A stretch of 64,000 nucleotides of DNA from Actinomyces lilanjuaniae (GTDB lineage Bacteria; Actinomycetota; Actinomycetes; Actinomycetales; Actinomycetaceae): positions 868,001-932,000 of the forward strand of contig NZ_CP032514.1 of NCBI RefSeq assembly GCF_003606385.1, in the 5' to 3' direction. A program made the position numbers and the translations under genes. Shown piece by piece: positions 42,034 through 59,728 of the stretch. Position 1 is the first letter of the stretch, and every line of letters starts with the position of its first letter. The notes beneath the pieces are model-generated. The model saw only the letters and a list, made by a program, of their open reading frames with translations, did not search any database and was not told the DNA's origin.

Positions 42034-44757
42034 CTACAGCACCTCAGCGACCGCGCTGCGCAGGGAGTCGGGCAGGCCCACGGCCTCCAGCTCGGCCAGC
42101 AGCGCGGCCCCGCTCAGCCCCCGCTGCACCGCCGCCCAGGAGCGGTCCTTGACCTCGTAGGGCAGCTGTGCCGCCTCCAGTAGGTTGTAGACCTCCTGAG
42201 GCCAGGGTGCCGGAGCCTGTACGGCGTCGGCTAGCACCACCTCCACGCCGTCAACCAGCTCCTGGGCGCTCAGCCAGCCCAGGTCCACCTCAGTGCCCGC
42301 GCCCAGGGTGAAGCCGTCGGCCTCGACCTGCCTCACGGGCAGCCCCGAGGACTCTAAGGGCTTGGAGGGCTTTGAAAGTCCTGTGAGCCCTGTGGGCTCG
42401 GCAGGGCCGGGGGTGTGGCCTTGTGCGTGCCGCAGTACCGCCCCCGAGCAGGAGCCCGCTAGAAGCCGCAGCCTCAGGTGCCGTGCCTGCGGCACCACGT
42501 GGGCGGCTCCCTCAAGCCGGACACGCACGACAGCCCGCCCCTGGTGACCTGTCGTAGCACCCGCTGTCACCTGGGTGCCCGGCTCCTTGCAGTCCGTCGC
42601 CTGGCTGCCCGGCCACTCCAGCTCGATCACCGTGCGGGCCACGGCTTGCGGCCCGGGAGCCGCTGAGCCGTCGTCCTCCTCCAGGACGGTGCTACCGTCG
42701 GCACCGGGGAGGACCACCAGCTCCAGCTCGCGCGGATTGTGGGACGCGGGTTCGTCCACGCTGCCTGCCAGAGGGATGACGCTGCCCGCACGCGCCAGGA
42801 CTACGGTGCGCTCCAGAGGCCTGGAAAGGACGAGCCTGCGCCCGCTACCCTCACCGGCTGGGGTGGTTGCGTCATAACGGCGTCCCGTGGGCAGGTCGTA
42901 CCACACACCCTCCGGTAGCCAGGCAGGCTCACGTCCCAGGCCCGTCACGGGGTCCAGGGGGCTGGTGAACGGGACAACCAGCAGGTCCCCGAAGAGGAAG
43001 GTCTGACGGAGCTCGTAGGCACCCGCCTGGTCCGGGTAGTCGTGGTAGAGGGGGCGTACCGGGCCAACGCCCTCGACCACCGAGCGCCTGGCCCAGGTGT
43101 AGAGGTAGGGGACCAGACGGTGGCGCAGCCGCAGGTAGGCGCCCATGGTGGCGCGCGCGTCGCGGCGGTAGCGCCACGGCTCCTTGGAGTTGAACTCCGA
43201 GGAGGTGGAGTGCAGTCGGTTGACCGGGGAGAAGCAGCCCAGCTGGACCCAGCGGGCGGCCATGTCGTCGTCGCGCTGGCCCAGCATGTGCCCGCCGATG
43301 TCGTTGGACCACCAGTAGTAGCCGATGTTGGCTGCCGTCGCGGTGAACTCCGGCTGGAAGCGCAGGGAGTCCCAGGTGGCGACCGTGTCCCCGGAGAAGC
43401 CGACCGGTGTGCGGTGGCTGGAGGGGTCGGCATAGCGGGAGAAGGTGACCGGGCGGCGCCCCTGACGGCCGGAGTCGAGGTAGTGGACGTGGTTGAGCAT
43501 CCACAGGGGGTCCAGCCCGGGGAGGGTCGTGGTACCTCCCTGCTGCCAGTCTAACCACCAGAAGTCCACGCCCTGCTCCTCCAGGGGGTGGTGCACCTGC
43601 TCCAGGTAGGCTCGTACGAAGTCACGGTCCGCGATGCTGAAGGGGACGTCCTCCCCGGCCGCCGGGTCCAGGCCCAGGTCGTGGCACACCGCCTGGTAGG
43701 CCTCCTCGTGGCGGCGCACGCCCTGGGCCGGGTGGACGTTGAGGGTGACCAGCATCCCGCGCTGGTGCAGGGCCTCCAGGAAGGAGCGGGGGTCCGGGAA
43801 GAGGTCGTGGTTCCAGGTGTAGCCCGTCCACCCCGTGCCGATCGCCGGATCGATGTCAACCAGGTGCCAGTCCATGTCGATGACGGCCACGGAGAAGGGC
43901 AGGCCCTCGGCAGCAAAGCGGTCCATGAGCGCCAGGTACTCCTCGGCGCTGTAGGCATGGTAGCGGCTCCACCAGTTGCCCAGCAGCGCCCGGGGGATGA
44001 GCGGGCTGGGACCGGTGAGGCGGAAGAAGTCGTTCAGGGCGGCACGGTAGTCCTGGGCGTAGCCAAAGAGGTAGAGGTCCTGGGATGCCTGGGCTGCCTG
44101 GTGGAGCTCCTGGGCAGTGCCCTGAAAGCCGCTGCGGGAGCTGCTGAGGTGGGTGTTGTGGGGGTCGTCGGCGGAACCCTCCCGGGGGACGCCGCTGCTG
44201 TCCCCGCCCTCGGTGCCGCAGCCTGAGGCGCGGGGCTCGACCCACTCGTCGTGGGTCAGAAGCAGGGAGGCGGAGTCGTCCAGCACCGCGATCCCGGTCA
44301 GGGACAGCAGGCCCGGGTCCAGGGCCGCGCGCCCGTCAACCTCGTCAAGGGTGCGGGTGGTGCCGCCCAGGTTGGTCGGGAAGGTTTCCGCAGGGTCCCA
44401 GGTGTCACCGTGGTACCAGGCGCCGCCGTGGGGCGCGGCGCTGGCCCGGCGCAGACGCACGTTGAGCCCGGAGCGGGTGAAGCCCAGGGAGGGCACGTGG
44501 GTGAGGTGGAGGTGCTCGGTGACGACCTCCACCCGGTCCGGCCCGGTCATGACACGGAAGGCGGGCGGCTCACCCAGGTCGCGGGTGGTGACGAGCTGGG
44601 TGGCGGCATCGGTGAAGGCCCCGGTGGGGGAGTACTCCATGCGGATGAGTCGGCTGGTGAGCACCGTGAACCGGTAGGTAGGGCCGGTCACCAGGGCCTG
44701 CGGACGGGCCGGGGCCGGGCGCGGGGTGCTGGGGCCGCGCGACAGCGGAGAGGTCAT
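42034..44757 (-). CDS. GH31 family alpha-glucosidase/alpha-xylosidase
   Basis: Retaining glycosidase acting on alpha-linked glucose or xylose. An N-terminal galactose-mutarotase-like domain precedes the barrel, with VIDMDWHLVD, the nucleophile Asp in DFWWLDWQQGG (about residue 402) and the acid/base region GFSGDTVATWDS (about 455), then WWSNDIGGHMLG. DUF5110-like beta domains follow. 907 residues, no signal peptide, so intracellular. A low-complexity insertion near 190-220 and an Arg/Ser/Lys/Pro linker near 800 are unusual. Divergent from a GH13 glucosidase, suggesting a shared isomaltooligosaccharide pathway. Confidence 0.9.
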   Translation of the reverse strand: MTSPLSRGPSTPRPAPARPQALVTGPTYRFTVLTSRLIRMEYSPTGAFTDAATQLVTTRDLGEPPAFRVMTGPDRVEVVTEHLHLTHVPSLGFTRSGLNVRLRRASAAPHGGAWYHGDTWDPAETFPTNLGGTTRTLDEVDGRAALDPGLLSLTGIAVLDDSASLLLTHDEWVEPRASGCGTEGGDSSGVPREGSADDPHNTHLSSSRSGFQGTAQELHQAAQASQDLYLFGYAQDYRAALNDFFRLTGPSPLIPRALLGNWWSRYHAYSAEEYLALMDRFAAEGLPFSVAVIDMDWHLVDIDPAIGTGWTGYTWNHDLFPDPRSFLEALHQRGMLVTLNVHPAQGVRRHEEAYQAVCHDLGLDPAAGEDVPFSIADRDFVRAYLEQVHHPLEEQGVDFWWLDWQQGGTTTLPGLDPLWMLNHVHYLDSGRQGRRPVTFSRYADPSSHRTPVGFSGDTVATWDSLRFQPEFTATAANIGYYWWSNDIGGHMLGQRDDDMAARWVQLGCFSPVNRLHSTSSEFNSKEPWRYRRDARATMGAYLRLRHRLVPYLYTWARRSVVEGVGPVRPLYHDYPDQAGAYELRQTFLFGDLLVVPFTSPLDPVTGLGREPAWLPEGVWYDLPTGRRYDATTPAGEGSGRRLVLSRPLERTVVLARAGSVIPLAGSVDEPASHNPRELELVVLPGADGSTVLEEDDGSAAPGPQAVARTVIELEWPGSQATDCKEPGTQVTAGATTGHQGRAVVRVRLEGAAHVVPQARHLRLRLLAGSCSGAVLRHAQGHTPGPAEPTGLTGLSKPSKPLESSGLPVRQVEADGFTLGAGTEVDLGWLSAQELVDGVEVVLADAVQAPAPWPQEVYNLLEAAQLPYEVKDRSWAAVQRGLSGAALLAELEAVGLPDSLRSAVAEVL

Positions 44758-44772
44758 GGCAGAAGGGTCGCA

Positions 44773-44887
44773 CCTCGGGGTGCGCGGCGCGCCCCGAGGG
44801 CGCGAGGCCAGACCTCTTGAGGGGCGCTACGTACAGCGGGACGCGCGGCGCACCCCGAGGGCGCACAGGGCGTGCAAGCGGGGGTGC
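44773..44887. repeat. Duplicated GC-rich element between GH31 and GH13 genes
   Basis: GCGCGGCGC-CCCCGAGGGCGC copies lie at 44782-44805 and 44843-44866, 61 bases apart. CCTCGGGG (44773-44780) pairs with CCCCGAGG (44792-44799), and GCACCCC (44850-44856) pairs with GGGGTGC (44881-44887), so each copy can form a hairpin. Further on, GTAACCG/CGGTTAC (44939-44945, 44965-44971) is an inverted repeat nearer the GH13 gene. Confidence 0.65.
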
Positions 44888-45083
44888 AGGGCGTCCAAGG
44901 TGTGTGAGGCGCACGTCCTTGGTGGCTGCTCGCAGGACGTAACCGCAGGAACATGAGAGTCGGCCGGTTACACGGCCAGGTTCGAAGGCTGAAGACGTGC
45001 AGCAAGTCTGGCAGAATCGGCTGTCCGTCGGGCTGGCCCAGCGCCCTCAGCCCTGCCCTCTCCACCGTTGTAGAAGGACCCCC

Positions 45084-47007
45084 ATGAGCCTCACCGTCCC
45101 GCCCCTGGTCGTCTCCGCCCGGCACGTCGGCACCGAGAAGGACTGGTGGCGCCGCGCCGTCGTCTACCAGGTCTACCCGCGCTCCTTCCAGGACACCAAC
45201 GGCGACGGGTACGGCGACATCCCGGGCATCACCTCCCGCCTGGACTACCTGGACACCCTGGGCGTGGACGTGGTCTGGCTCAGCCCCGTCTACCGCTCCC
45301 CGCAGGACGACAACGGCTACGACATCTCCGACTACCGCGACATCGACCCCCTGTTCGGGACCCTGGAGGACCTGGACACCCTCATCGCGGGCCTCCACCA
45401 GCGGGGCATGCGCCTGGTCATGGACCTGGTGGTCAACCACACCAGCGACGAGCACGAGTGGTTCCGCGACAGCCGGTCCTCACTTGCCTCGGCCCGGCGC
45501 GACTGGTACATCTGGCGGTCTGCCCGCCAGGTGGAGGGGCTGGAGCCGGGGCAGCCCGGTACCGAGCCCACCAACTGGGGCTCGGCCTTCTCCGGGTCCG
45601 CCTGGGCCTGGGACGAGGCCAGCGGTGAGTTCTACCTCCACCTGTTCTCCCCGAAGCAGCCTGACCTCAACTGGGAGAACCCGCAGGTCCGCCGGGCTGT
45701 CTACGACATGGTGACCTGGTGGCTGGACCGGGGCGTGGACGGCTTCCGCATGGACGTCATCAACCTGGTCTCCAAGACCTACCCGCTGGCCGACGCCCCT
45801 CGGGGTGAGGGGCAGCTCTACGGCTCGGGCTGGCTGCTGCGGCCAACGGTCCGCGTATCCACGAGTTCCTGGCGGAGATGAGCCGGGAGGTCTTTGCCCC
45901 CAGGCCGGGACACGTCATCACGGTGGGGGAGATGCCTGGGTGGACCGTGAGCAGGCGCGGCTCTACACCGGGCCCGGGCGTGGTGAGCTGGACATGGTCT
46001 TCCAGTTCGAGCACATGGGCCTGGCCGAGGGAAGCGGCGGCAAGTTCGACCCGGTACCGGTGGACCTGGTGGCTCTCAGGCGCAACCTGGCCTCTTGGCA
46101 GGAGGGGCTGGCTCCGCAGGCCGTGGCAGAAGGTGGCGGTGCCGGGACGGCAGCGGGCGCTGCCCCCGCATCGGGGCACCTGGTAGAGACCGGCTGGAAC
46201 TCCCTGTACTGGGACAACCACGACCAGCCGCGCGCCGTCTCCCGGTTCGGTGACGACGACCCGGCCTGGCGAGAGCTGTCCGCCAAGACCCTGGCCAGCA
46301 TCCTCCACGCTCACCGGGGCACGCCCTACGTCTACCAGGGCGAGGAGCTGGGAATGGTCAACACCGTCCTGGAGCGGATTGAGGACTACCGGGACCTGGA
46401 GTCGGTCAACTACTTCCACGAGCGGGTTGGCGTGGGGGAGGACCCGGCCGCGCTGCTGTTGGCGATGCGTGTCAGCTCGCGGGACAACGCCCGCACCCCG
46501 GTGCAGTGGTCCGACGCCGAACACGCCGGGTTCACCACCGGCCTGCCGTGGATGCCGGTGACTCCGGGGTACCGGGAGGTCAACGCCGCCGCCCAGGTCG
46601 GGGTGGCGGGGTCGGTCTTCGAGCACTACCGGGCACTCATCGCCCTGCGTCACGACGACGAGGTACTGGCCCTGGGGACCTTCCGCCTGCTGGCTGCCGA
46701 CCACCCCACCGCCTGGGTGGTGCTGCGCGAGCTGGAGACGCGGACCGGGCGTGAGCAGCTCTTGCTCATCGCCCAGTGCGCGCGTGAGGAGCTGGTGCTT
46801 GGCTCGGGTGAGGAGGAGCCGGGCGACGGCGGGACGGGCGGCCTGTGGGAGGCGCTGGCCGCCGAGGGCCTGGACGCGGGGGAGTGGTCGGGTGCCCGGC
46901 GGCTGCTGCAGGCCGCGGATCCGGCTGTCCAGCCCTCGTCCGGCCACGTGGGGGCGCCGCCCTGCCTGGGCGGCTGGGACTCGGTGCTGCTGCGGCGGTG
47001 GGTCTGA
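45084..47007 (+). pseudogene. GH13 oligo-1,6-glucosidase/alpha-glucosidase, with two frameshifts
   Basis: Alpha-amylase-family glucosidase of the trehalulose/isomaltase group. ATG 45084 (AGAAGGA upstream) begins a normal barrel: VVYQVYPRSFQDTNGDGYGDI, DLVVNHTSDEH, nucleophile in GVDGFRMDVINL. The frame is lost at 45837-45842, one base short. A second frame holds the acid/base Glu (ITVGEMPG) until 45938-45940, where a GGG run is one base short. The third frame contains the NHDQPR aspartate and the C-terminal domain to 47007. All catalytic residues exist, so repair of two single bases gives a complete enzyme of about 640 residues. Confidence 0.85.
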
Positions 47008-47483
47008 GGGGAGTCAGGCGCTGATCGCCGGGGCGCGACTGTACGAGGGCTTCGCAAAACACCACTGTGCTTATGGTCTTGTGAGGGCTTGATATAGCCA
47101 ATGCTGACAGGCGAAAAAGGGGACAGGATTCCTTGAAGGCGTTGTAGGCTCGTGAGAGGAGTTGTTCAGGAATTCCCCGCGTAGAAGAGCAGGGTTATTC
47201 CACGACCTGTCATGGTACTCTGTCAGCCAGAATCAGGATCACGTCAGCGCAGGCCAGTCAAGGTGACGGCTTTGTAAGCAGAGGACGATTCCCGTTGGTG
47301 GGGTGGAGCTACAACCGCCGGGTACGGCGAGGACGACAGCCGCAGATTGTTCATCAGCCCCCGACATGAGGTACTCCTGCTGCGCCATGGTAGTGCTGGA
47401 GTACATGGACTCGCCACAAGGATTTTCTTGGAATTGTCCGCATGTTGTCGAACGCCGAAGACGGTGAGCAGATGTGCCGGTTC
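47008..47483. other. Low-GC gap marking the left edge of an island
   Basis: From about 47040 the base composition drops clearly, and no reading frame here has a recognisable product. GAGGGCTTCGCAAAACA at about 47046-47062 resembles ends seen in some insertion sequences, but no matching transposase or partner repeat was found. A plus-strand frame at 47347-47679 is largely antisense to the ArsR-type gene and is not supported. Confidence 0.4.
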
Positions 47484-47855
47484 TCAGTTAGTTATTTGGG
47501 CATCAGGTTCCGAGACATCGACAGACTCCCGCCACGTGCCCTCACCAGGGGGGAGTCCCACTGAGAGCAGGAGACCTGGGAAAAGGGTCTCTATCACGCC
47601 GTCACGGCGGGTGACGCGGCGATGTTTTCCGACAACCTCGGTGTGCATAAGGCCAGACTCTCGAAGAACCCTGAAGTGATAGGACATCGTTGACTTAGCT
47701 ACGTCATACATGTTACTCAGGTCACCGCAGAACTGCGGCCCATCGGAAGCGATCCGCTGGAGGATATCCCGCCGAATCGGGTCTGACAGCGCGCCGAGCA
47801 CCCGATCAAGCTCGATGTCACCCACGGTAGGGTGATGCAGCCGCTCTCTGCCCAC
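47484..47855 (-). CDS. ArsR-type winged-helix regulator
   Basis: About 123 residues. The segment LGALSDPIRRDILQRI, then CGDLSNMYDVAKSTMSYHFRVLRESGLMHTEVVGKHRRVTRRDG is a typical ArsR-like helix-turn-helix with wing. No cysteine metal site like ELCVCDL is present; the single Cys lies in PQFCGDL. GTG start with AAGGGACGG nearby. Third-position composition is less GC-biased than in core genes. It follows the biosynthetic operon on the same strand and is its likely regulator. Confidence 0.82.
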   Translation of the reverse strand: MGRERLHHPTVGDIELDRVLGALSDPIRRDILQRIASDGPQFCGDLSNMYDVAKSTMSYHFRVLRESGLMHTEVVGKHRRVTRRDGVIETLFPGLLLSVGLPPGEGTWRESVDVSEPDAQITN

Positions 47856-48479
47856 GACCCGTCCCTTCTGGTCTCTCGCTCGTACAACTGCAGACCCATC
47901 TTACCGGACTCTTGACGCCGTAGCACCTTTTGTGTGCGTAGTTTCCGGCGGGTATGCCGGGGAAGGCGCATGGCAGCCTCGCGTAAAAATAGGATCCGCG
48001 AGGCATACCGTGGTCTGCATGGGTACCACCGACCTACGTGAACCTCTCGTGGTGAATTAGTCAACTGATCGGTACGATGCCACGGGACGGCGGTAGCGCT
48101 TGCTACCCGACTGCCAAACTGGGCGCATACCTGCCTCCCTGTTCCTGGGAGGCATCGCAATCTGCTTGACCGGCGGAACGTTGTGCGTCTTGAACTCGGT
48201 AATTTGGCATATGTAGGGTTTGCTGCCTGGTACATCGGAGACCTGTTCTTGATGCATAGAACAGGAGGATTGCCCAGGATGGGAGGTAATGACGTGGTGC
48301 CACCTGTAGCTGCACCCAAAAGACCTACCGCAGGCTGTAAGAGTACCGGGAAAATAAGTGCCAGCAATAACAGGTGCTAAGGCCATAGTTCTACGCAATT
48401 ACAAAGACGTATACTTCAATGAGAAAAGGCGGCGGTGAATGTTGCGTGATGCACATATGGTTTGGACTACTCACCATAG
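47856..48479. other. Gap within the island; one doubtful small reading frame
   Basis: No recognisable gene. A minus-strand frame (48398 to 48057) could encode 108-113 residues starting MALAPVIAGTYFPG, with four cysteines in its first half and a basic C-terminus. It lacks a ribosome binding site and a family match, though TATACG lies just upstream. It is recorded only as a candidate small protein or peptide gene of the cluster. Otherwise nothing is seen. Confidence 0.3.
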
Positions 48480-49679
48480 TTACTGAATAGACCTAGCGTC
48501 CGTTCTAAATGCACCGCCGAGAGCGTAGACGCCAAGGGAGGCGGTGTAGGCGACAACGGTAAATACAGCGACACCGCTGTACCCGGAAAACTGTGTCAGC
48601 AGGTGTCCGCCGACGGCACCTCCGATGGTCGTTCCCGCATACATGGCTGCGTTTGCTAAAGAAGACACGGTGCCTCGAGCGAGGTCCGTATGGCTTTGGA
48701 GTTCGCTCATGAGCACAGGGAAGAGAAAACCGCCGACGAGCATGCCCAGCGCGAGAACAGCGATTGCGATCCACATGGTGTGGACGAAGGCAGTCAGGAG
48801 ATAAATTGCTCCAAGAGCGATGATTCCAAGCAACAGCGACCGCTGCTGTCCAAGGTGTGAGACCAGGCGCGAGCCGGTTAGTGACCCGATAGCATTACCG
48901 AGCCCGATAACGATCATGGCAGCACCGATCATGGTTTGAGTGGCCCCGAAGTCCCTAGAAAACCAGGAGCCTATGAAAGAGAGCGCGGCAAAATTTCCGG
49001 TTTGGAACAACAGGTAGGCCGAGAGTGAGAGCATAAGCGGTCGAGAACGGACAACATACGCATATGGAGTGAATAAGCCTCCCTTCGTTGCACTGGCCGG
49101 TCGCACATTCGGGAACCTTGTATAGAGAAGGATCCAGAGCAAGGCGCCTGCAGTAGCAATAGCGAAGAAGGAAACTCTCCATCCGAGCGAGGACAGGAAG
49201 GACGCGATAGGAATTCCAGCCACCTGAGCAATAGCAAGGCCCGCTGTTGCGTACCCCATCGTCTTCACTATTGAAGAGGGGACTACCAGCACCGGAATCG
49301 ACGCCCAAATCTGTGGAGTTACAAAAGCGGCTGCAATACCTGTGAGAAGGCGTGCGGTGAAGAGTGACCAGAAGTCCCAAGCACCTCCGCAGGCTGCAGT
49401 GAGTAACGTGAATCCAATCAATCCGGACAAAAGCACTTTTCTCCGGTCTAGTCTGTCTGATACCGGTCCTGCTATGAGCGCGAACAGTGCGTATCCGAGA
49501 GCGTACGCCGAGACGAGCCATCCTGATTGCGACACGGTTACGCTAAACTCTCGCTGCAGAAGCGGTAGCAGAGGCGCAGTAAGGAAGGTGTCCGTGCCAA
49601 TGACAAAAAGAGTGGCGAAAGAAATGAGGCGTACTGTCGGTTCAGACGCCGTTCTTGGGGAGATATTTTCCGTAGTCAT
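48480..49679 (-). CDS. MFS transporter (DHA1 family exporter)
   Basis: Twelve-helix exporter, 399 residues. It starts VRLISFATLFVIGTDTFLTAPLLPLL, with motif A AGPVSDRLDRRKVLLSG between helices 2 and 3, and the AraJ/Bcr-type motif GIPIASFLSSLGWRVSFF in helix 5-6. Codon use is visibly A/T-richer than in core genes. Last gene of the minus-strand operon 54466-48480, 40 bases after the chorismate-lyase-like gene. Probably exports the cluster product. Confidence 0.88.
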   Translation of the reverse strand: MTTENISPRTASEPTVRLISFATLFVIGTDTFLTAPLLPLLQREFSVTVSQSGWLVSAYALGYALFALIAGPVSDRLDRRKVLLSGLIGFTLLTAACGGAWDFWSLFTARLLTGIAAAFVTPQIWASIPVLVVPSSIVKTMGYATAGLAIAQVAGIPIASFLSSLGWRVSFFAIATAGALLWILLYTRFPNVRPASATKGGLFTPYAYVVRSRPLMLSLSAYLLFQTGNFAALSFIGSWFSRDFGATQTMIGAAMIVIGLGNAIGSLTGSRLVSHLGQQRSLLLGIIALGAIYLLTAFVHTMWIAIAVLALGMLVGGFLFPVLMSELQSHTDLARGTVSSLANAAMYAGTTIGGAVGGHLLTQFSGYSGVAVFTVVAYTASLGVYALGGAFRTDARSIQ

Positions 49680-49719
49680 TGTTACTCTCTAGTCCCACTG
49701 AAAAATCTGTGATGTATGA

Positions 49720-50214
49720 CTATACATTTGAGGAGTCGGCAGGGATATTGTTGATGGGTGCCACAAGAGGGGAGAACAGTTCCCTTATGTAGATTAGGCT
49801 GGAACTTATGGCGGTTGCGACAACATATTCCTTGAACGCCTGGTGATACTGTTCATCAACTCCGGCGGCGAGGATCTCACGATGTTGCGGCGTGTGTGCA
49901 CCACGTAGTTGCAGGCCTAGCGGTAGCGGACTATCCGAACTCCATACCGCAGCGTCCGGCGGATACAACACGATGTTGGTCGATAGGACGCGGTTTCCCG
50001 ATAACAGTTGGGAGCGACGGAGCCTCACCACTTTGTGTGAGCCAAGATGAATCCTCTCAGTAGCGAACTCCTCGGGTTCGAGAACCCGATCTCCGTTGAC
50101 AACAAGTCGGACCTCAGTCCCGGTGATAGCTTGTAAACACCGGGTTGTTGACCCATCGTTTGTGAGCAGAACCCTAGTTACTACTGGTAATGTACTTAGG
50201 TCGATGGTAGTCAT
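49720..50214 (-). CDS. Chorismate-lyase-like (UbiC/DUF98 fold) protein
   Basis: 164 residues. The N-terminal VVTRVLLTNDGSTTRCLQAITGTEVRLVV resembles the start of DUF98 chorismate pyruvate-lyases such as mycobacterial Rv2949c (RILIAANGTLTRVL). The centre VVRLRRSQLLSGNRVLSTNIVLYP resembles their RYRVISGGQPIMVVTEHF. If active it would turn chorismate into 4-hydroxybenzoate. The UTRA effector fold is a structural relative, but there is no DNA-binding domain. ATG overlaps the glycosyltransferase stop (ATGA). Recognition is from remembered family patterns; moderate. Confidence 0.5.
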   Translation of the reverse strand: MTTIDLSTLPVVTRVLLTNDGSTTRCLQAITGTEVRLVVNGDRVLEPEEFATERIHLGSHKVVRLRRSQLLSGNRVLSTNIVLYPPDAAVWSSDSPLPLGLQLRGAHTPQHREILAAGVDEQYHQAFKEYVVATAISSSLIYIRELFSPLVAPINNIPADSSNV

Positions 50215-51437
50215 GGTGTAACCTGAGAAATCATCTTAGCGGCGGTTAAGGTTGCACGACCGCCCGAAGGTGTGAGCGTAGCAAAAGCTTTTGCACAACG
50301 GTCTGCCAGTTGACCCGTTACAGCATCTTTCAGCAGACTATGAAGAGCGTCAGGACTAGGCTCGACTAACGTAGGGAAGCCCAGCGCTTCAAGACGGCGT
50401 AACGATTCGATCTCATGATATTCTCCCCGTCCACCAAGAACAAATATTGTCGGAACTCTGAGCGCGGCGACTTCCGTCACGGTGATCCACCCTGGTTGTG
50501 CGATCAAGGCAGTGGCGCAAGTGAGTAATGGCATCCAGTCTGGGATGTAGTTAAGGGTGTGTACACCCTCCTCTGCGGGGGGAGTAGTTCCACGGCCAAT
50601 AAGAATCATTTCGGCATCAGAATGGCTCTTACGAAGATGTGCGAATGCATGCAGGTATGTCCGAATAGCTTTCTGTTTGTTCTCTATGAACATTGACATA
50701 CCGCCGACAGACGCCACAAGAAGCGGGCCGGTACTGAGACCTAGTTCATGGCGAAGTTGCTCTTGATTCACGTTCTTAGGTGCTGGTCTAGTCATAGGCC
50801 CAACGAAATGCACATTCGGCTCATTCAGTTGTGAGTATAAAGCAGTGCCGACATCGAGATCAGGTAATGGGGGTTTATCTGTCAGAACGAGTGAAGAATT
50901 TCTTATAATCCAATCGAATATGATGCTCAGAGTTGGTCTTGCGCGACTGATCTCTGTGTCGTTGACGATGAAACCTGCCTCACGAAAGTCGTCATTGCTG
51001 ATTTGAGCGAGAGAGAAGTCATACCGCTCAGTTATCAGCACATGCCGATATTGTCCTATAACAGACGCCACGCTGGCCGTAAGGTTGTAGTCGGAGACAA
51101 CTATAGCCGGATTAATTTCCTTGAAGTAGGCTAAATAATCAATTATCTTTGACCCGTTAAGGAATGTTGGCGCAAGGTATCCGCTAATATAGTGTTCTTG
51201 ATCCAGGATTTTATCTAGGTGACTGCTATGAGCATGGCTTATCACGTCGTTCTCGGTCGAAATTACTTTTACACCTGCGCTTTCAAACAGGGGCGCGAAA
51301 ACGTCCTGCATCGACCCAAGAAGTACGACTATCTCTCTTTCCGGGCACACGGAGCGAAGCTCGCTAGCCAATGCAAGTGCCCGCATATTGTGTCCACTTC
51401 CAGTGGCATTTGGAACCATCAGAATGGGTTTTGACAT
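50211..51437 (-). CDS. GT-B fold glycosyltransferase (GT1/GT28, MurG-like)
   Basis: Transfers a sugar from an NDP-sugar to a small acceptor. The N-terminal domain begins ILMVPNATGSGHNMRALALASELR, the acceptor-side glycine loop. The C-terminal domain has SVGGMSMFIENKQ, then YIPDWMPLLTCATALIAQPGWITVTEVAALRVPTIFV, the donor-binding region as in MurG/UGTs. 408 residues. AAGGAAAAG precedes ATG 51437, just beyond the acyltransferase stop. In context it may glycosylate an aromatic or prenyl-like product. Acceptor and sugar unknown. Confidence 0.85.
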   Translation of the reverse strand: MSKPILMVPNATGSGHNMRALALASELRSVCPEREIVVLLGSMQDVFAPLFESAGVKVISTENDVISHAHSSHLDKILDQEHYISGYLAPTFLNGSKIIDYLAYFKEINPAIVVSDYNLTASVASVIGQYRHVLITERYDFSLAQISNDDFREAGFIVNDTEISRARPTLSIIFDWIIRNSSLVLTDKPPLPDLDVGTALYSQLNEPNVHFVGPMTRPAPKNVNQEQLRHELGLSTGPLLVASVGGMSMFIENKQKAIRTYLHAFAHLRKSHSDAEMILIGRGTTPPAEEGVHTLNYIPDWMPLLTCATALIAQPGWITVTEVAALRVPTIFVLGGRGEYHEIESLRRLEALGFPTLVEPSPDALHSLLKDAVTGQLADRCAKAFATLTPSGGRATLTAAKMISQVTP

Positions 51438-51447
51438 GAACTTTTCC

Positions 51448-52350
51448 TTATATGATCGAGTGTGATACATCGCCTGGGGCGACGTCGTGGACAACAATGT
51501 GGTCTGCTTGGACAAGAGCGTCGTCGCTGATATTCAGCGGTCCTACCAGTGTGGCGCCAGACTCGATAGTCACGCCCGTACCAATCCGCACTGGTGTCGT
51601 GATGCGCGGCAGGCTCAGAGCGCTGTAGTCGTGTCCAGAAGTCAGGATTGTTACTTCTGCTCCAATGGTGGAGTAGTTTCCGATATCTAATCCACCAGAT
51701 GCTTCGAGAATGCACTCACTACCGATTGTGACATCGGTTCCAATTCGGATGCCGCCGTGTGGAGTGTCTGCCGTGGGACGGCCCATTAGCACGCTGCCAG
51801 CTGCGACTCTGAGTCCAGCTCCACCGTTGATGTGCGCATCATTGAGTGCGCCTGCTTCAATTTTAGCATCCGGGGGCCAAGCGGCCTTGTATAAGTCGGT
51901 CCGACGAGACACGGTATCAATCGTTTTCCTAATACCTAGACTTGCAGTACTGTCATTAATTATTCTGGGTATATGTCGGGTTGCGGGTTTTCCGAGAGCA
52001 ATTGTTTGCGCTGGTATGTCGGCGGTCACATGGGCGCCAGCGCCGATGATGGCACCTTCGCTCACATGAACACCCGAATCAATGTGCGCGCTCGCGCCTA
52101 CCCATGCTCCTTCTCCGATAATCGCTCCCGCTCCGATCCGAGATCTGCTTGCGATCATGGCCGAATTATGGATAGTGGCTCCGTCTATCAGGCAGCGGTA
52201 TCCCACGAAGACGTTGTTGCCGAGGCGAGAGTTTGTGACCATGCTGAATGCCCGGACCCAAGTATAGTTTCCTAGAACTGATCCACTCAGACATGTGCCG
52301 GGCTCGGGCACTGCGTTCACCGCTATGGAGTACGTTTCCAGTGTGGTCAT
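51448..52350 (-). CDS. Double left-handed beta-helix (hexapeptide) acyltransferase
   Basis: About 300 residues with two runs of [LIV]-G-x4 hexapeptides. The first (about 20-110) reads NSRLGNNVFVGYRCLIDGATI and IGAGAIIGEGAWVGASAHI. The second (about 180-290) reads VTIGSECILEASGGLDIGNYSTIGAEVTI, followed by GHDYS, the catalytic-His position of NodL/LacA/Maa-type O-acetyltransferases. The ATG at 52350 overlaps the stop of the preceding gene (ATGA); ATG 52368 is an alternative. Likely O-acylates the cluster product. Confidence 0.82.
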   Translation of the reverse strand: MTTLETYSIAVNAVPEPGTCLSGSVLGNYTWVRAFSMVTNSRLGNNVFVGYRCLIDGATIHNSAMIASRSRIGAGAIIGEGAWVGASAHIDSGVHVSEGAIIGAGAHVTADIPAQTIALGKPATRHIPRIINDSTASLGIRKTIDTVSRRTDLYKAAWPPDAKIEAGALNDAHINGGAGLRVAAGSVLMGRPTADTPHGGIRIGTDVTIGSECILEASGGLDIGNYSTIGAEVTILTSGHDYSALSLPRITTPVRIGTGVTIESGATLVGPLNISDDALVQADHIVVHDVAPGDVSHSII

Positions 52351-54326
52351 GTTAGCATCAACGCCCATGTCCGATCTAGTGATTCGTTGAGCATGTGCAG
52401 CGCCTGCACCGCGATAAATCCCTCGTCTGTGGTTTCAGAGGTCCCGTTTGCGTGCCTACCGAACCCGCCGTCTGCTTCTTGGCGGCTCAGGATGTATCTT
52501 CGACAGCGGTCGACATCCGGCACGGGCATTCCGAGCACGTAAAGGCCGGCAATTGCGTGGTAGGAGCCTACGAAACTGACGGTTGCGTCTCTGCGGTACC
52601 GGAAACCGCCTCCAGGGTCCTGTAGAGAATTCAAGTATGTGATGGTCTGTGGGACGTGCTCGGGCTCTGCCCCGAGTGCGAGCAGGGAACCGATTGCCCG
52701 GAATGTTGCGAATGCATCCGATATCCTTCCCGGCCGCTGTCCATAGCCTCCATCATCATTGCGGCAACTGCGTAAAAAACCGGTTAACCTATAACTATCC
52801 TTTGGCTCGGCGTGGAGTGCAACTAAGGCTAAAACTGCTAGATTGGTATGCCAGATATCTTCTACTACTCCGGGGTAGTTACCGAAGCCGCCAGAATGTT
52901 GTTGGGCGGAACGCAGGAAGTGGGCAGTTTTGTCCACGGCCCCGAAATCGGCTCTCGCAATGAGACCAGAGAGCACGGCACAGTAGGTTGTGAATACCTC
53001 TGACGGGAGACCAGGGCGTTCGGCAAACCCGCCATCAGGGTTGCGGCAGGCGATAAGACATTGACTGATCCATTTTGCGTCGGGCAGAGGGCGGCCCAGT
53101 ACCGTGAGGTCTGAGAGTACGTGCAGCATTGAGAACGTCTGTGCGCTTGTATCTGCTCGGAACCCCAATGGTGCTGCGTACGGCGTCAGTCCGTACCCGG
53201 TGCCGCTTCGGGTCCTTTCGAGCCAGTTCAGATAGGCGTCTAGATTTAATCTCGGCGTTGGTGTCGTGCCTCTGGGTACTGGTGGGCGTCGTGCGTCGAA
53301 ATCTATCAGTTGGATCGATTGCCCTGGGGGTGGCTCGGCGGTGTGTTCCTTTGAGGCAGCGGTGCCCGCCCATAGCGCGCATATCTGCGTGTAGGCGTGC
53401 TTATTCTGAGTGGGTACGTAGGTGCTGTTGCCGACACTGTATCCGCTTACCGAGCGGGGTGGGACCATCACTAGCCTATCTAGCGGTACAGTCGGATCAG
53501 TCGGGGTGGAGAACCAACTTCCTTGGCCGTAGTTGACGCCGCCTGTGGGATCATGCAGGGATGATAGAGTTTCGCGAGCCGTTTCGCGCAGGATGTCTGC
53601 GCCATTGCTGGTAAACCCTTGAAGCGCCACCAAAAGCAGGGCCTGGTCAGAGGCAAGCACCGCTGGGAACGGTGAGAAGTCGCCACGAGCAAATGCGGCT
53701 TCCGACAGTACTGAGACGCGGTTATTGCGGTCGAGGCGACTCCATATTCCTGGGTGCCAGGCAGTAGGAATAACTGTGTTATGCAGCATCGTGACGATAA
53801 CTTCTGCGCGATGAAGCCATCTGTTACCTACTTCACTGTGACTCGCGAGAGAACGGCAAGCCATGAGTGCCCACGAGAGGTCATGCGTCGAGGCCCCTAA
53901 AGATTTTACTGGTGTTCCCGCAGCATCTACGCGGTCCCAGAACTGCACTCCATCCCAGAACATTTCAATCGCTTCGATTGGGATGTTGCTGCCAGCGCGG
54001 ACTGCCAGAAGTACACCTGCTGAGGCAGTAGCGAGTCGGCGTTCACTGATCAGGACTTCACCGGTCCGAGTAAAGTTCTCTGCCCATGCGACAGCTGCCA
54101 GTTTGTCCAGGATGCTCCTGGCTTTCCGGGTGTCGTTGTTCAGGGCTAGTGCACCTAAAGCCCATACTACGGTATCGAAGCCGTTCATTGCTTCTCCGAG
54201 AGGGTGGATGGCGCCGGTCACATCGAGTAGTGACGGGGGTGTCTCATCGTTGCTTGCGACAACAAAGCGTTCTAGTGCCCGCCGGGCCATATCCTGAAGA
54301 TCCGGCTTGCCCGTCTCTGCGGCCAC
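52347..54326 (-). CDS. Alpha/alpha-toroid protein with prenyltransferase/terpene-cyclase repeats
   Basis: About 659 residues from the GTG at 54326. The C-terminal half has five repeats of the PFTB/SQHop type: NPDGGFAERPG, HSGGFGNYPG, NDDGGYGQRPG, DPGGGFRYRR and EADGGFGRHANG. Each is followed by a helix pair such as EVFTTYCAVLSGLIA. The N-terminal half is also helical and may be a second toroid. No DxDD cyclase motif or prenyltransferase zinc site is seen. The coding frame continues upstream to about 54451. A better start, ATG 54466 with AGGAG, is one base out of frame across a run of eight C. First gene of the operon. Confidence 0.75.
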   Translation of the reverse strand: MAAETGKPDLQDMARRALERFVVASNDETPPSLLDVTGAIHPLGEAMNGFDTVVWALGALALNNDTRKARSILDKLAAVAWAENFTRTGEVLISERRLATASAGVLLAVRAGSNIPIEAIEMFWDGVQFWDRVDAAGTPVKSLGASTHDLSWALMACRSLASHSEVGNRWLHRAEVIVTMLHNTVIPTAWHPGIWSRLDRNNRVSVLSEAAFARGDFSPFPAVLASDQALLLVALQGFTSNGADILRETARETLSSLHDPTGGVNYGQGSWFSTPTDPTVPLDRLVMVPPRSVSGYSVGNSTYVPTQNKHAYTQICALWAGTAASKEHTAEPPPGQSIQLIDFDARRPPVPRGTTPTPRLNLDAYLNWLERTRSGTGYGLTPYAAPLGFRADTSAQTFSMLHVLSDLTVLGRPLPDAKWISQCLIACRNPDGGFAERPGLPSEVFTTYCAVLSGLIARADFGAVDKTAHFLRSAQQHSGGFGNYPGVVEDIWHTNLAVLALVALHAEPKDSYRLTGFLRSCRNDDGGYGQRPGRISDAFATFRAIGSLLALGAEPEHVPQTITYLNSLQDPGGGFRYRRDATVSFVGSYHAIAGLYVLGMPVPDVDRCRRYILSRQEADGGFGRHANGTSETTDEGFIAVQALHMLNESLDRTWALMLT

Positions 54327-54451
54327 GAAGGCAAGCAGACCCGCGTCAAGTAACCGCTGTTCAGCGGTTACGGCATTAGCGCCGTCTGCTGACTTCGCGG
54401 CGGTTAGGCAGGGTTCCTTGGCGCTGAACTTGCGCAGGAACCACTCGTCAA

Positions 54452-54459
54452 GGGGGGGG
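54452..54459 (-). repeat. Homopolymer of eight C at the 5' end of the toroid gene
   Basis: On the minus strand ATG (54466-54464) is preceded by TTAGGAGCAGC, a good ribosome binding site, and followed by CGC A and eight C. With nine C the frame reads MRTPPLDEWFLRKFS and runs on into the toroid protein. With eight it does not. This is the longest G/C homopolymer I noticed in the window, placed exactly where slipped-strand switching would act. Confidence 0.8.
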
Positions 54460-54639
54460 TGCGCATGCTGCTCCTAAGTTCGATGTTCGACGAACCAAGT
54501 ATTAACACTGAGGCCACGCTTCGTCAAGTTAACTAGATCACAGGAAGTCCTCCTGGCGGGGGTGCCTCTGTGTGGTGTGTCAACCTGCGGTTGGGCTGTG
54601 TTCGGGTTGTGTGTCGCGGGTCCATGGCGTACGGGGCTG

Positions 54640-55386
54640 GACTGTGGTGGTAGGCCAGGGTGATAAGTTGTCTCGCCAGTTGGGCTACCGCCTCGGCAAC
54701 TCGGGTGCCGACTACCACCATGCGCTGGGCCTCGAGCTCGCCTACCCAGGTGGAGCGGCGGCGGGAGCCGTGGTCCTTGAGCCTGGCGTCGGTCCTTGTG
54801 CGGCCCGCCTTGCGCAGGGAGGCGGGGTGGGTTAGGCGGCATGCCCTCCAGGACGGCGTCGTGCGTGAGCCACTTGCTCAGCACCTGCTAGGAAGCGGGA
54901 TGGACCTGGGTGTACAGGCCCCGGACCCGATTGGCGGCCTGGTTGATCTTCCGGGCAAGGTCCCGGTCAATAGCGGGCAGCATGCGCAAGGCGGTAGCAT
55001 CCTCCTCCGAGGTACTGATGGACTTGAGCGTGTGGGGCACCGTGCGGGCTGCGCTGGCGATCACCTCCGCGTCCCTCGCCTCGGTCTTGGCGCTACCCGG
55101 GTCGGGATGGTGACCCAGCGCATCAACAGGCCGGGCAGGTAGCCTACGGTGACGCCCGTGGCCTGGGTGACCGTCACTGCCAGACTGCCGATGGTGCCGC
55201 GCTGGTTCACCGCCACCAGCATCCGGCTGTGGCTGCTGAGCCGTTCGTATACTTCGCGCTGCCGACTCTCGTCGTTGGGCAGGGCACTGTCGAGGAGGCT
55301 CCTCCCGTCTGCGGTTAGGGCTGTGACCCGGTGCTCGGTCTTGCCACGTCAATGCCGATGAACACGTCTGTGTCATCGGCTCGCAT
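54640..55386 (-). mobile_element. Truncated IS110 family transposase
   Basis: Starting at ATG 55386, the minus strand encodes the IS110 DEDD transposase N-terminus: DVFIGIDVA, then in a shifted frame TEHRVTALTADGRSLLDSALPNDES and TIGSLAVTVTQATG..GYLPGLLMRW, and in another frame AKTEARDAEVIASAARTVPHTL and NRVRGLYTQVHPAS. A TAG stop interrupts it, then AQRMVVVGTRVAEAVAQLARQL follows. The C-terminal Transposase_20 domain is absent: similarity stops near 54640, next to the island. Several frameshifts, one nonsense codon and a truncation mean it is inactive. Confidence 0.8.
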
Positions 55387-55493
55387 CCAGCTCGTCTTTC
55401 CGTTTTCTCGGTGTGGGACCAGCCAACAGGCTCCGGCCCTGCACCCACGTCACAAAAGGGCTCGAAGGGCCGTCGGTCCGTCCCTGCTGATCA

Positions 55494-55529
55494 GCTGTTA
55501 CCGGCAGCCCTGCAGCGGCCGGTAACAGC
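55494..55529. repeat. 12-bp inverted repeat beside the IS110 remnant
   Basis: GCTGTTACCGGC (55494-55505) and GCCGGTAACAGC (55518-55529) form a perfect stem around a 12-base loop, 108-143 bases upstream of the transposase start. IS110 elements encode their bridge RNA in this non-coding end, so the hairpin may be part of a bridge RNA or of the insertion junction. It could equally belong to the flanking chromosome. The rest of the gap 55387-55734 shows no gene. Confidence 0.5.
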
Positions 55530-55734
55530 ACTCAGGATCATTATAACGACAAGGACAAGACATCATGTCGACCGACAACAAGGTAACGGGTGGTCGGCTG
55601 CACGCCTCCGATAGCTGACATTGATCAACTGTTCTACGTAGCGTCGTGTGCCTACGCTGTTTCCGGGATCGGCCAGACAGATAGTGAGACAGCATGCAGA
55701 GGTGGCCGGTCCCAGAAGCGAAAGGAGAACAGTC

Positions 55735-56300
55735 ATGGCAGGTGAGCGCGGTGTCCGGGGCGCCGGTACCTGGGTCGAGTTCCGGGGCTGACCGCGTGGG
55801 TCGCGCTCTCGTCCTGGAGCTCGACGGTGTCTCCTGGCGCTTCGGGGGCGGGTCCTCGGCCTGTTGGGACCCAACGGTGCGGGCAAGATCACGCTGCTGT
55901 CGATCGCGGGCTGCGTCCTGGCTCCGGCGTTGGGTCGGGTTGCCGTTATGGGGGAGCGGGTGAGCGACACCGCCACCGCCCGTCGTGCCAGGGGCTCGAT
56001 CGGGTTCCTGCCGCAGAACCCGTCCTGGGTGCCGTCGTTCACCTGCCGTGAGACGTTGAGTACGCAGCCTGGCTGAAGTCCGTACCGAGACAGCAGCGGC
56101 GACAGCGGGCGGACGAGGCTGTGGAGCAGGTGGGAATGGACGTTCAGCACAGCCAGAGGATTGAGGTACCGGTCTGGAGGAATGGCGCAGCGTGTCAGCC
56201 TGGCCTGGGTGGCAGCCTCCTGGAGAAGGGGTACATGTCGGTGGTGACGGCTGGCGGCGCACCTGGTGAGGCGCCCCGGGCTCTGGCGCGGGCTGTTCTA
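55735..56300 (+). pseudogene. Remnant of an ABC transporter ATP-binding protein
   Basis: ATG 55735 with AAAGGAG starts a frame that stops after 18 codons. Downstream, in changing frames, lie RALVLELDGVSWRFG, the Walker A GLLGPNGAGKIT, then RARGSIGFLPQNPSWVPSFTCRETL (Q-loop) and SGGMAQRVSLA (ABC signature). The Walker B, D-loop and H-loop are not found, and the part after the signature is lost. The Walker A itself has Ile for the usual Thr after Lys. A decayed ABC-2 type ATPase, probably once partnered with a membrane protein and the response regulator that follows. Confidence 0.72.
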
Positions 56301-56343
56301 CCTCCCTGGCAGAAGGAGGTCGGGCGGCAGGGGGTGACCGGGT

Positions 56344-56526
56344 ATGACGACTCCGCTCCGTATCGAGGCCAGGCGCTCCCAGATCCTGTGGCTGGCGCCG
56401 GTACTGGCTGGTACCCACATCGCTCTTACTGCGGCAGACCTGGGTGTGTGGCGCATGTCGTGCCCCATGGCCGTCCTGTACGCAGCTGTTACGCTGGCGA
56501 GACACGATGAGAGGGAACTGCGATGA
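56344..56526 (+). CDS. Small membrane protein or truncated ABC permease
   Basis: 60 residues with one or two hydrophobic segments (ILWLAPVLAGTHIALTAADL, MSCPMAVLYAAVTLA). Its stop overlaps the next start (ATGA at 56523), so it can be coupled to the response regulator. It looks like the N-terminus of an ABC-2 permease whose body was lost together with the preceding ATPase. A genuine small protein cannot be excluded. Confidence 0.45.
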   Translation: MTTPLRIEARRSQILWLAPVLAGTHIALTAADLGVWRMSCPMAVLYAAVTLARHDERELR

Positions 56527-57281
56527 CCGGAGGAAGAGATACAGCCAGGCCCTTGCGGGTGCTTGTCGTTGGTGCCGAGTCCCCCTCGTCCCGTGTCCTG
56601 GAGACCGGCCTGGGAGGGGACCCCCGCTTTGAGGTGGTGGACCACGTCAGCGACGGGGGCCAGGCGCTAGGAGCCCTGTCTGAGTGGGCCGTGGACCTGG
56701 TCCTGCTGGACTGGGACAGCACCGACCTGGGTGCTACGGCAGTGCTGGAGAGCCTGCAGCACTCAGACAATGGCGTACGCGCGGCTGTCATGACCGCATA
56801 CAGGAGCGAGGCGGTCCTCCAGGATGCGGTCGAGGCGGGTGTCGTGGCCTTCGTGGACAAGAACATGGGCTGGTCCCCTCGCCTGGGCGACCAGCTCCTG
56901 CGGGCGGCGGAGGGCCAGGTGGTGCTGTCTGACTGGCCTGGCGACCTCCTTGAGGCACTTGTCCAGGACCCACGGGAGAGGGAGGATGGCAGCGACGGTG
57001 AGACAGGTGGTAGCAGCGACACGGGTGGCAGTGATACAGGCGGTCACGGGTCTGGTGATGCGGGGTCCGGGGGTGGCGACGTCAGCAGCACCGCCACCGC
57101 GATACCTTCTCGTCTGGTCCCGGTCTACCAGGGGATCCTGGACGGACTGACCAACCGGGGGATCGCCCGCCGCACCGGGCTCAGCGAGGGCACTGTGCGC
57201 ATCTACGTCTCCGAGCTGCTCACCCTGCTGGGCTGCCAGTCGCGCACAGAGGTCGTCATCCACGGCCTTGGGCGCCTCTGA
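56523..57281 (+). CDS. LuxR/NarL-type response regulator with atypical receiver
   Basis: 252 residues. The receiver keeps the phosphoacceptor Asp63 (VLLDWDS) and a Lys near 110 (FVDKNMG), but the usual acidic pair at the start of the domain is replaced by VVGAES. A linker of about 40 residues rich in Gly, Ser, Asp and Thr follows, with short repeats (GGSSDTGGSDTGG). The C-terminal helix-turn-helix reads GILDGLTNRGIARRTGLSEGTVRIYVSELL. No histidine kinase is adjacent. It remained intact next to decayed transporter genes. Confidence 0.8.
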   Translation: MTGGRDTARPLRVLVVGAESPSSRVLETGLGGDPRFEVVDHVSDGGQALGALSEWAVDLVLLDWDSTDLGATAVLESLQHSDNGVRAAVMTAYRSEAVLQDAVEAGVVAFVDKNMGWSPRLGDQLLRAAEGQVVLSDWPGDLLEALVQDPREREDGSDGETGGSSDTGGSDTGGHGSGDAGSGGGDVSSTATAIPSRLVPVYQGILDGLTNRGIARRTGLSEGTVRIYVSELLTLLGCQSRTEVVIHGLGRL

Positions 57282-57377
57282 GCACCTCTGGCCCTATTAT
57301 TCTTGTGTCTGGGTGGAGCGGCGTCCCGTGGAAGGGGTTGCTGCAACGTTTTGTCGCGACCTAGAGGAGCTGGTCGG

Positions 57378-58265
57378 ATGCCGGGTCTGTTAGATGATCG
57401 ATATGTCCGGGGTGCGGTGATCGTGTTGGGCGGGGTCTTGCTCATGTCCTTTGACGCCGCCCTTATCCGGGCCGTGGGCCTGCCGGCCGGGGTGCTGTCG
57501 CTGTGGCGCGGGGTGCTGATATGCGCTGCCATGGTGCTGGCAGCGTCCCTTTGCCATGCTGGTGGCGCAAGGCAGCGCTGGCACAACGAGTGGGCTGCCT
57601 GGGGCAACGGGCTGATGTTCGGGGTGGCGTCGGTGGCCTTTGTGTACTCTATCGAGAGCACCTCCGCCGCCAACACGCTTTTTATCATGGCGACCATGCC
57701 GGTGTGGTCGGCAGTCCTGGGGCGGGTGTTTCTGCGGACTAGTATTGATCGGCCGACAGTTTTGGCGATCATGGTGTCGCTCGTCGGCATGACGATCATC
57801 TTCGCCTCACAGCTCTCCAGTGCCGCTGGTCGGGGGGAGCTGCTGGCCCTGCTGGCTGCGGTGTCGATGAGCGGCGGCTTCGTGTTCTCCTCGCGACGCC
57901 GGTCCAGCCCGTTTCTCACCACAGCGGTCGGCGGGGCGCTGTGCGCGCTCACCGCTGCCGTCCTCCTGCGCGGGGTGGAGGTTCCCGCCCTGGGATCATG
58001 GCTGCCCCTGGTCGCTGAGGGATTCGTGGTCATGCCAGTCGGCCTGGTCTGCCTGTCCGTGGGACCGAGGCTTCTGCCCGTGCACCATGTGGCGATCTTT
58101 GTACTGGCAGAGACGGTGCTGGGGCCAGTGTGGGTGTGGATGTTCTTCCACGAGAATCCCGGGCCGGCCTCGCTCGTGGGTGGGGCGGTGGTCATCGGGG
58201 CGATCGTCAGTCTGAACATGTACTATATTCGCCTTTCGAGGAAGGAAAGAGTAGGTGCGGTCTGA
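57378..58265 (+). CDS. EamA/DMT family transporter
   Basis: Ten-helix drug/metabolite transporter of 295 residues with two EamA halves. The first half has SFDAALIRAVGLPAGVLSLWRGVLI and IESTSAANTLFIMATMPVWSAVLGRVFL; the second has LAETVLGPVWVWMFFHENPGPASLVGGAVVIGAIV. AGAGGAGC lies 7 bases before ATG 57378. The Nudix gene starts inside its last codons, forming an overlapping three-gene operon. Substrate unknown. Confidence 0.88.
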   Translation: MPGLLDDRYVRGAVIVLGGVLLMSFDAALIRAVGLPAGVLSLWRGVLICAAMVLAASLCHAGGARQRWHNEWAAWGNGLMFGVASVAFVYSIESTSAANTLFIMATMPVWSAVLGRVFLRTSIDRPTVLAIMVSLVGMTIIFASQLSSAAGRGELLALLAAVSMSGGFVFSSRRRSSPFLTTAVGGALCALTAAVLLRGVEVPALGSWLPLVAEGFVVMPVGLVCLSVGPRLLPVHHVAIFVLAETVLGPVWVWMFFHENPGPASLVGGAVVIGAIVSLNMYYIRLSRKERVGAV

Positions 58266-59609: not shown

Positions 59610-59626
59610 CGGCACCAGGGGCGGTC

Positions 59627-59646
59627 TGCTGGCGGGGACACCAGCA
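59627..59646. terminator. Possible bidirectional terminator between convergent genes
   Basis: TGCTGG (59627-59632) and CCAGCA (59641-59646) form a short stem with an eight-base loop in the 119-base gap between the HAD gene and the phosphofructokinase gene on the other strand. Short, so only a weak case. Confidence 0.3.
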
Positions 59647-59728
59647 CAGCCCGCGCCCACCCGTGCCCACCACTGTGTGTGCGTAAGCCGCTGTATACAC
59701 GCCCGTGCCCTTCCGAGGGCCGCCTTGT

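Follow-up and report, generated by a model that had tools for sequence, protein, structure and literature searches.

We analyzed a 64,000-nucleotide stretch of the Actinomyces lilanjuaniae genome (contig NZ_CP032514.1, positions 868,001 to 932,000; hereafter the window) and, in particular, an island of five linked minus-strand genes accompanied by a gene for an ArsR-type regulator. The five genes encode a toroid protein (TOR), an acyltransferase (AT), a glycosyltransferase (GT), a chorismate-lyase-like protein (CL), and a major facilitator superfamily exporter (MFS). We propose that the island is probably a compact biosynthetic cluster that moves horizontally and makes an exported 4-hydroxybenzoate glycoside. 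The gene set, its co-occurrence elsewhere, gene fusions, an operator sequence, predicted folds, and the absence of the island from a sister genome were computed and form the basis of this proposal. The genes are as follows:

52347-54326, minus strand: body open reading frame of TOR (full feature 52347..54466), predicted AGE-fold domain plus RabGGTase-beta-fold domain
51448-52368, minus strand: AT, acyltransferase with two hexapeptide (left-handed beta-helix) blocks
50211-51437, minus strand: GT, GT-B glycosyltransferase, distantly GT28-like, motif TGSGHNMR
49720-50214, minus strand: CL, putative Rv2949c-like chorismate pyruvate-lyase
48480-49679, minus strand: MFS exporter
47484-47855, minus strand: ArsR-type regulator

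An earlier reading of the same DNA, made without database searches (the sequence-only reading), had described five minus-strand genes with short overlaps or gaps, an ArsR gene beside them, and a GC content below that of either flank, and our coordinates and base counts agree. GT and CL overlap by 4 bases (ATGA), TOR and AT overlap by 22 bases, and 40 bases separate CL from MFS. The ArsR gene lies 624 bases from MFS and was therefore placed outside the five-gene run. For GT, the mechanical open reading frame is 50211-51515, and its relatives begin at the ATG at 51437. GC per island gene is 0.49-0.59, compared with 0.69-0.72 in the five 1-kb bins left of the island and 0.64-0.72 on its right side. 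We rejected low GC as a signature of the family: the window's copy of the island has 54.5% GC, while those of its nearest relatives (loci L002 and L039) have 65%. Readings as a defense island or as virus cargo were also discarded. In PADLOC, only the helix-turn-helix of ArsR found matches (Csa3/CARF models), with no match for the other five proteins at E 0.001. A scan of viral contigs with the GT alignment gave 13 pattern matches and 0 relatives. No tRNA integration site was found at window positions 44000-60000.

Co-occurrence and control of the gene set

A genome scan with the TOR alignment returned 33 loci, 30 of them in the family and 3 matching only the C-terminal domain. The family set used here also numbers 33 loci outside the window, namely the 30 scanned loci, the plasmid loci L035 and L036, and L039; distant toroids that match in the C-terminal domain only (L032, L033, L034, and L037) were left out, and the damaged L030, L031, and L039 were kept. 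Hosts span Actinomycetota, Bacillota, and Pseudomonadota and include Pseudoclavibacter (a metagenome-assembled genome, MAG), Streptomyces, Paenibacillus, Priestia, Enterococcus, Streptococcus, Pantoea, Pseudomonas, and Burkholderia. By tblastn, GT accompanies TOR in 32/33 loci (not L031, and partially in L030 and L039) and AT in 30/33 (not L030, L031, or L039, with a weak partial match in L030). The dTDP-glucose genes RfbA and RfbB were found in 27 of the 33 and MFS in 13. A search of 396 actinobacterial genomes at E 1e-20 served as a test independent of the known loci: full-length TOR was present in two genomes, GT was present in the same two and adjacent to it, and two more matched the TOR C-terminal domain only. 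Among 72,556 plasmid records, GT occurred in two, both with a family TOR, and three Rhizobium records matched the C-terminal part of TOR only. Co-occurrence of the island genes is thus far beyond chance, and the check for shared occurrence that the sequence-only reading had suggested turned up the genes together across three phyla.

Several individual loci deserve comment. A Priestia megaterium plasmid, typed as non-mobilizable, carries an apparently complete cluster (L036, 1-18901); it includes RfbA, RfbB, and an aldo/keto reductase, and there is no MFS match. The L030 and L031 clusters are damaged; in L030 (9226-10924, Burkholderia sp. TSV86) GT has lost its front part and TOR its N-terminal domain, and what is left of TOR is 98% identical to the TOR of L024. 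In Streptomyces sp. ASQP_92 (L007, 13135-22164), the cluster is followed, beyond an amidohydrolase gene, by a frame for a 3010-aa modular polyketide synthase. The Rhizobium rhizogenes K84 plasmid pAtK84c (L037, 6586-14976) carries one of the distant toroid proteins beside an annotated coenzyme F390 synthetase gene, with an N-acetyltransferase, an amidase, and a chloramphenicol-resistance-type exporter also nearby; this is perhaps another small toroid-using biosynthetic cluster. Two apparent fusions were not used as evidence. On the Streptomyces plasmid of L035 (14001-17441), a single annotated MFS transporter gene spans TOR and MFS, and it was set aside because TOR changes frame inside it, near 15804. 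An AT-TOR fusion (P0040) lacks parts of both proteins and looks like a deletion product.

Export and regulation also follow a pattern. The 13 MFS loci are all Gram-positive except Pantoea, and RND pump genes occur in 17/17 Pseudomonas/Burkholderia loci. The closest NCBIfam model to the window's MFS is the Cmx/CmrA family, at a score far below the cut-off. ArsR relatives accompany both kinds of loci and, in the six compared, are 32-53% identical to the window's regulator. The same AT-GT-TOR core thus occurs with two exporter kinds and, as described below, with two lyase families, which argues for a useful, conserved product. Two features precede TOR in the window:

54479-54494, minus strand: putative ArsR operator, TTCGTCGAACATCGAA, identical in sequence in L002 and L039
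54498-54527, minus strand: promoter-like site (TTGACG, spacer 18, AATACT)

Within two mismatches, the putative operator has 10 sites in nine Streptomyces loci, against a mean of 0.05 and a maximum of 1 in 40 Markov simulations, and none of 200 permuted operator motifs reached 10 sites. It was found in all seven Streptomyces loci that have ArsR and in neither of the two that lack it (L007 and L008), and six of the 10 sites are located approximately 40-55 bp before TOR. The TTGAC hexamer of the promoter-like site is kept at the same position in L002 and L039; the promoter scan itself gave two sites against a shuffle mean of 4.8, which is not above chance.

The aromatic ring, the proposed pathway, and the TOR protein

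CL appears to be a distant member of PF01947, resembling the Rv2949c chorismate pyruvate-lyase. Nine of 15 aligned CL members, including the window's, match PF01947 at E 0.01 or better, and a search with the family profile recovers the hypothetical protein 2nwi at 7.6e-19. By tblastn, the CL family is present in 14/33 loci, and its fusions are informative: in seven of 120 GT homologues the C-terminal part is a CL domain (e.g., Pantoea P0114 and Paraburkholderia P0174), and in Streptomyces loci L028 and L035, CL forms a fusion protein with DAHP synthase, which opens the chorismate route, and chorismate synthase is encoded close by. L003-L006 carry DAHP synthase as a gene of its own near the cluster. 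CL is not beside the cluster in any of the 17 Pseudomonas/Burkholderia loci, nor was it found in the six such genomes searched whole. All 17 of these hosts have two lyases of the UbiC type; Pantoea has one, and the 12 Gram-positive hosts have none. One UbiC gene falls inside the fetched locus in four cases (L023, L025, L026, and L027). The three regions fetched for L013, L020, and L030 have it downstream within the same contig, and the 12-14 kb that separate it from TOR hold other genes. In L024, it is on a separate 14-kb contig next to ArsR and an outer-membrane channel gene, and in the other nine hosts its coordinates lie about 2 kb beyond the end of the fetched locus, if the contigs are the same. 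Altogether, a chorismate lyase of either family goes with 31/33 loci, the exceptions being L011 and the damaged L031, and this is the strongest sign that the substrate is 4-hydroxybenzoate. The fusions and the replacement by UbiC suggest, indirectly, that CL would convert chorismate to 4-hydroxybenzoate.

From the gene set we infer the reactions, their order, the sugar, and the inducer of the following pathway. CL, or UbiC in its place, would split chorismate to 4-hydroxybenzoate. In most clusters elsewhere, RfbA and RfbB would convert glucose-1-phosphate to dTDP-4-keto-6-deoxyglucose; here, that donor would be supplied by the host's own dehydratase gene, which is present in the genome. The donor sugar may be reduced in some clusters, and aldo/keto reductase and oxidoreductase genes are found in some of them; its identity is a guess from the neighboring genes. 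GT would then join the dTDP-deoxysugar and the aromatic acid, AT would acylate the sugar (most likely by acetylation), and TOR would perform the characteristic tailoring step on the glycoside. Export would be through MFS or, in Pseudomonas and Burkholderia, the RND pump, and ArsR would bind the conserved operator until relieved by a compound of the pathway.

A number of observations weigh against the proposed 4-hydroxybenzoate glycoside. The window's CL scores 19.4 bits in PF01947, where the cut-off is 22, and GT is weakly scored in Pfam, where 10/17 GT members match Glyco_tran_28_C at E 0.01 or better and the window's (E 0.12) is not among them. Enterococcus L011 has the core, and neither family of chorismate lyase is present in its genome, which makes it a real counter-example. 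Where UbiC lies 12-14 kb from TOR with genes between, the extra copy may have another role. No operator was found in Pseudomonas loci L057 and L023, and L058 gave it only at three mismatches, which is chance level. Finally, the start of TOR in the window itself is out of frame, a matter that we return to below.

As a rival reading, the cluster could instead belong to the cell envelope, making a surface glycolipid or decorating a wall polymer, with 4-hydroxybenzoate as an anchor and the TOR toroid binding lipid. The closest NCBIfam models to AT, which has an invariant His246 in its second hexapeptide block, are polysaccharide and sugar acetyltransferases. GT distantly resembles MurG and a diacylglycerol glucosyltransferase. 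Mycobacterial phenolic glycolipids also use the same lyase family (PMC3087520). However, a small, exporter-linked, ArsR-controlled cluster that is rare in 396 genomes resembles secondary metabolism, none of the six island proteins is a flippase, a polymerase, or an acyl-chain enzyme, and the cluster occurs both in Gram-positives whose walls differ greatly and in Pseudomonas. We therefore consider an envelope role unlikely and retain the exported glycoside as the preferred reading.

TOR is the least familiar component of that pathway. Residues 404-705 have the predicted fold of protein prenyltransferase beta subunits (RabGGTase beta), and TOR matches the Pfam prenyltransferase toroid. For the N-terminal domain, the best structural matches are AGE-fold enzymes, with the (alpha/alpha)6 barrel of the sugar-epimerase fold; cyclases are not among the listed best matches, an absence that excludes nothing. 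TOR is thus predicted to combine a sugar-epimerase-fold domain with a prenyltransferase-beta-fold domain in one chain, and it is predicted to lack an intact known catalytic set of either parent fold. In an alignment of 45 members it carries many invariant polar residues, and residues 1-372 include no invariant or 90%-conserved His (the best column has 30/45 members).

Partly from the toroid, the sequence-only reading had suggested a glycosylated, acylated aromatic or prenyl-type product; in the prenyl version, TOR would prenylate 4-hydroxybenzoate or cyclize its prenylated form. Class II terpene cyclases of the squalene-hopene cyclase type have a DxDD motif in the catalytic toroid, and zinc-dependent protein prenyltransferases have Asp-x-Cys and His as zinc ligands. 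No DxDD was found in the C-terminal domain of the 45 TOR members, and the one D.DD string overall is in the N-terminal domain of P0016. At what we take to be the position of the ligand Cys, all 45 members have Phe491 in the HMMER register or Val632 in the structural register, the latter being an estimate from linear offsets of the structural alignment without coordinates. When TOR is aligned to RabGGTase beta with HMMER, E489 and H539 do coincide with two of the ligand positions, and Cys495 is invariant; some metal site in TOR may therefore be possible. No partner alpha subunit was seen among the six island proteins, although no search aimed at one was made, and there is no prenyl diphosphate synthase among them. 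The combination of 4-hydroxybenzoate with a geranyl group does have a precedent in xiamenmycin (PMC4053376). Given the motifs, the island's gene content, and an N-terminal domain of the sugar-epimerase type, we regard this part of the earlier proposal as very unlikely. Tentatively, TOR may instead found an enzyme class in which a toroid with an altered active site is joined to a sugar-isomerase-fold barrel and carries out a novel reaction on a sugar-aromatic conjugate, with the family of molecules made by the cluster spanning three phyla.

Probable acquisition and state of the window copy

Three further features bear on the history of the island:

46997..56465, no strand: stretch missing from near sister G070, including the island and the IS110 remnant
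54888-55448, minus strand: IS110 transposase remnant (residues 116-184 match PF01548)
54452-54459, minus strand: run of eight C (C8) between the ATG and the TOR frame

The near sister G070, whose GH31 gene is 90% identical to the window's, has the left flank (window 44990-46996) and the right flank (56466-57262) 760 bp apart, compared with 9.5 kb in the window. Since this stretch is missing there, the island was probably acquired recently. Apart from the prenyl suggestion, the sequence-only reading is upheld: the island is biosynthetic and probably acquired, it carries a GT-B enzyme, a hexapeptide acyltransferase, an exporter, a regulator, and a protein that is likely to supply 4-hydroxybenzoate, and a truncated IS110 lies at its edge. 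Its limits of 47484..54466 hold for the genes, but the absent stretch is longer (approximately 46997-56465). To the right of the island, an EamA transporter gene (window 57303-58265) is also absent from G070, so the surroundings are variable too; copies approximately 80-86% identical are present in seven other same-genus genomes.

TOR is present in two of 49 same-genus genomes (37 + 12 searched, own genome counted). The second copy, in G030 (locus L039), has no match to the window flanks in the 19-kb stretch fetched, and an in-frame deletion there fuses TOR to GT with loss of AT, joining residues 1-260 of the mechanical TOR open reading frame to residues 220-434 of that of GT. The same deletion product recurs, at 99% identity, in protein cluster P0042 (six member sequences). 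ArsR and the operon are divergently oriented in L039 and in the Pseudoclavibacter MAG locus L002; the latter comes from a metagenome contig of 13 kb, so the name of its host is uncertain. The window differs in that its operon is inverted with respect to ArsR and so runs in the same direction, with the promoter-like site and operator before TOR retained. TOR and GT trees of 19 rows group the window with L002 (support 100/100). Their deeper branches are long or weak and conflict between the two trees, and consequently we draw no deeper history.

Whether this copy works is a separate question. The TOR ATG at 54466, the end coordinate in the sequence-only reading, follows a ribosome-binding sequence, but it is out of frame with the gene body across the C8 run; the open frame begins at 54473 and has its first internal GTG at 54326. 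This run is the sole C/G run of eight or more in the window and one of ten such places in the 3.02-Mb genome, where the longest, at G000:C1:1311654-1311675, has 22 bases. To the left of the island, a GH13 (alpha-amylase family) gene at window 44997-47007 is split over two frames and, relative to a 92%-identical sister stretch, shows one-base gaps at 45036, 45826, and 45937, each in a short C/G run, which may reflect decay or base-call error. Gaps of this kind make a base-call or assembly error possible at the island too. The copy here may thus be off, broken or decaying, or mis-assembled. It is quite possible, without our favoring it, that it is non-functional and decaying after transfer, a view compatible with the 4-hydroxybenzoate glycoside as the product of the family. 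The out-of-frame ATG, the inversion, the IS110 remnant, the G030 deletion in the only other same-genus copy found and its recurrence in P0042, and the damage to L030 and L031 would all fit decay. On the other side, the frames of the other island genes are open, the promoter-like site and operator are kept, the GH13 gaps point to possible base-call errors, and a rare C run at the start of a gene is also compatible with phase variation.

Comparison with known systems

In line with the sequence-only reading, we found no described cluster with this gene set, and no description of the TOR domain make-up, in the open-licence PubMed Central literature. The aromatic-glycoside logic of the cluster nonetheless resembles known systems, here centered on an enzyme with that undescribed make-up. 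The mycobacterial phenolic glycolipid locus (Rv2949c, Rv2958c, and Rv2962c) has been read as horizontally acquired, with a GC drop; there too, an Rv2949c-family lyase supplies the phenol ring and glycosyltransferases add sugars (PMC3087520). Those sugars are, however, put on a lipid backbone and methylated (PMC3087520). Among the six island proteins, to which this search was confined, none is a polyketide synthase or a methyltransferase, and the island has AT, TOR, an exporter, and ArsR. The xiamenmycin cluster of Streptomyces xiamenensis is likewise a five-gene cluster, starting with XimC, a chorismate lyase shown to make 4-hydroxybenzoate. Its other listed genes encode a 4-hydroxybenzoate geranyltransferase, an epoxidase, a SnoaL-like cyclase, and an amide synthetase, with no glycosyltransferase, AT, or TOR among them (PMC4053376).

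The proposed pathway is testable, with a clear first step (chorismate to 4-hydroxybenzoate) and TOR as the clear unknown, and the apparently complete clusters in Streptomyces and Pseudomonas would allow the product to be sought there directly. As for TOR itself, the C-terminal domain shares the beta-subunit toroid of RabGGTase beta but differs in the Phe or Val at the ligand Cys position of all 45 members and in its fusion to an AGE-fold domain. The N-terminal domain shares the (alpha/alpha)6 barrel of the AGE superfamily (glucose 2-epimerase, cellobiose 2-epimerase, and YihS), whose pair of essential His residues (His247 and His377 in one such enzyme; PMC5726027) has no counterpart among the conserved positions of TOR. 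If the reaction of TOR does prove to be new, it would add an activity to two well-studied folds.

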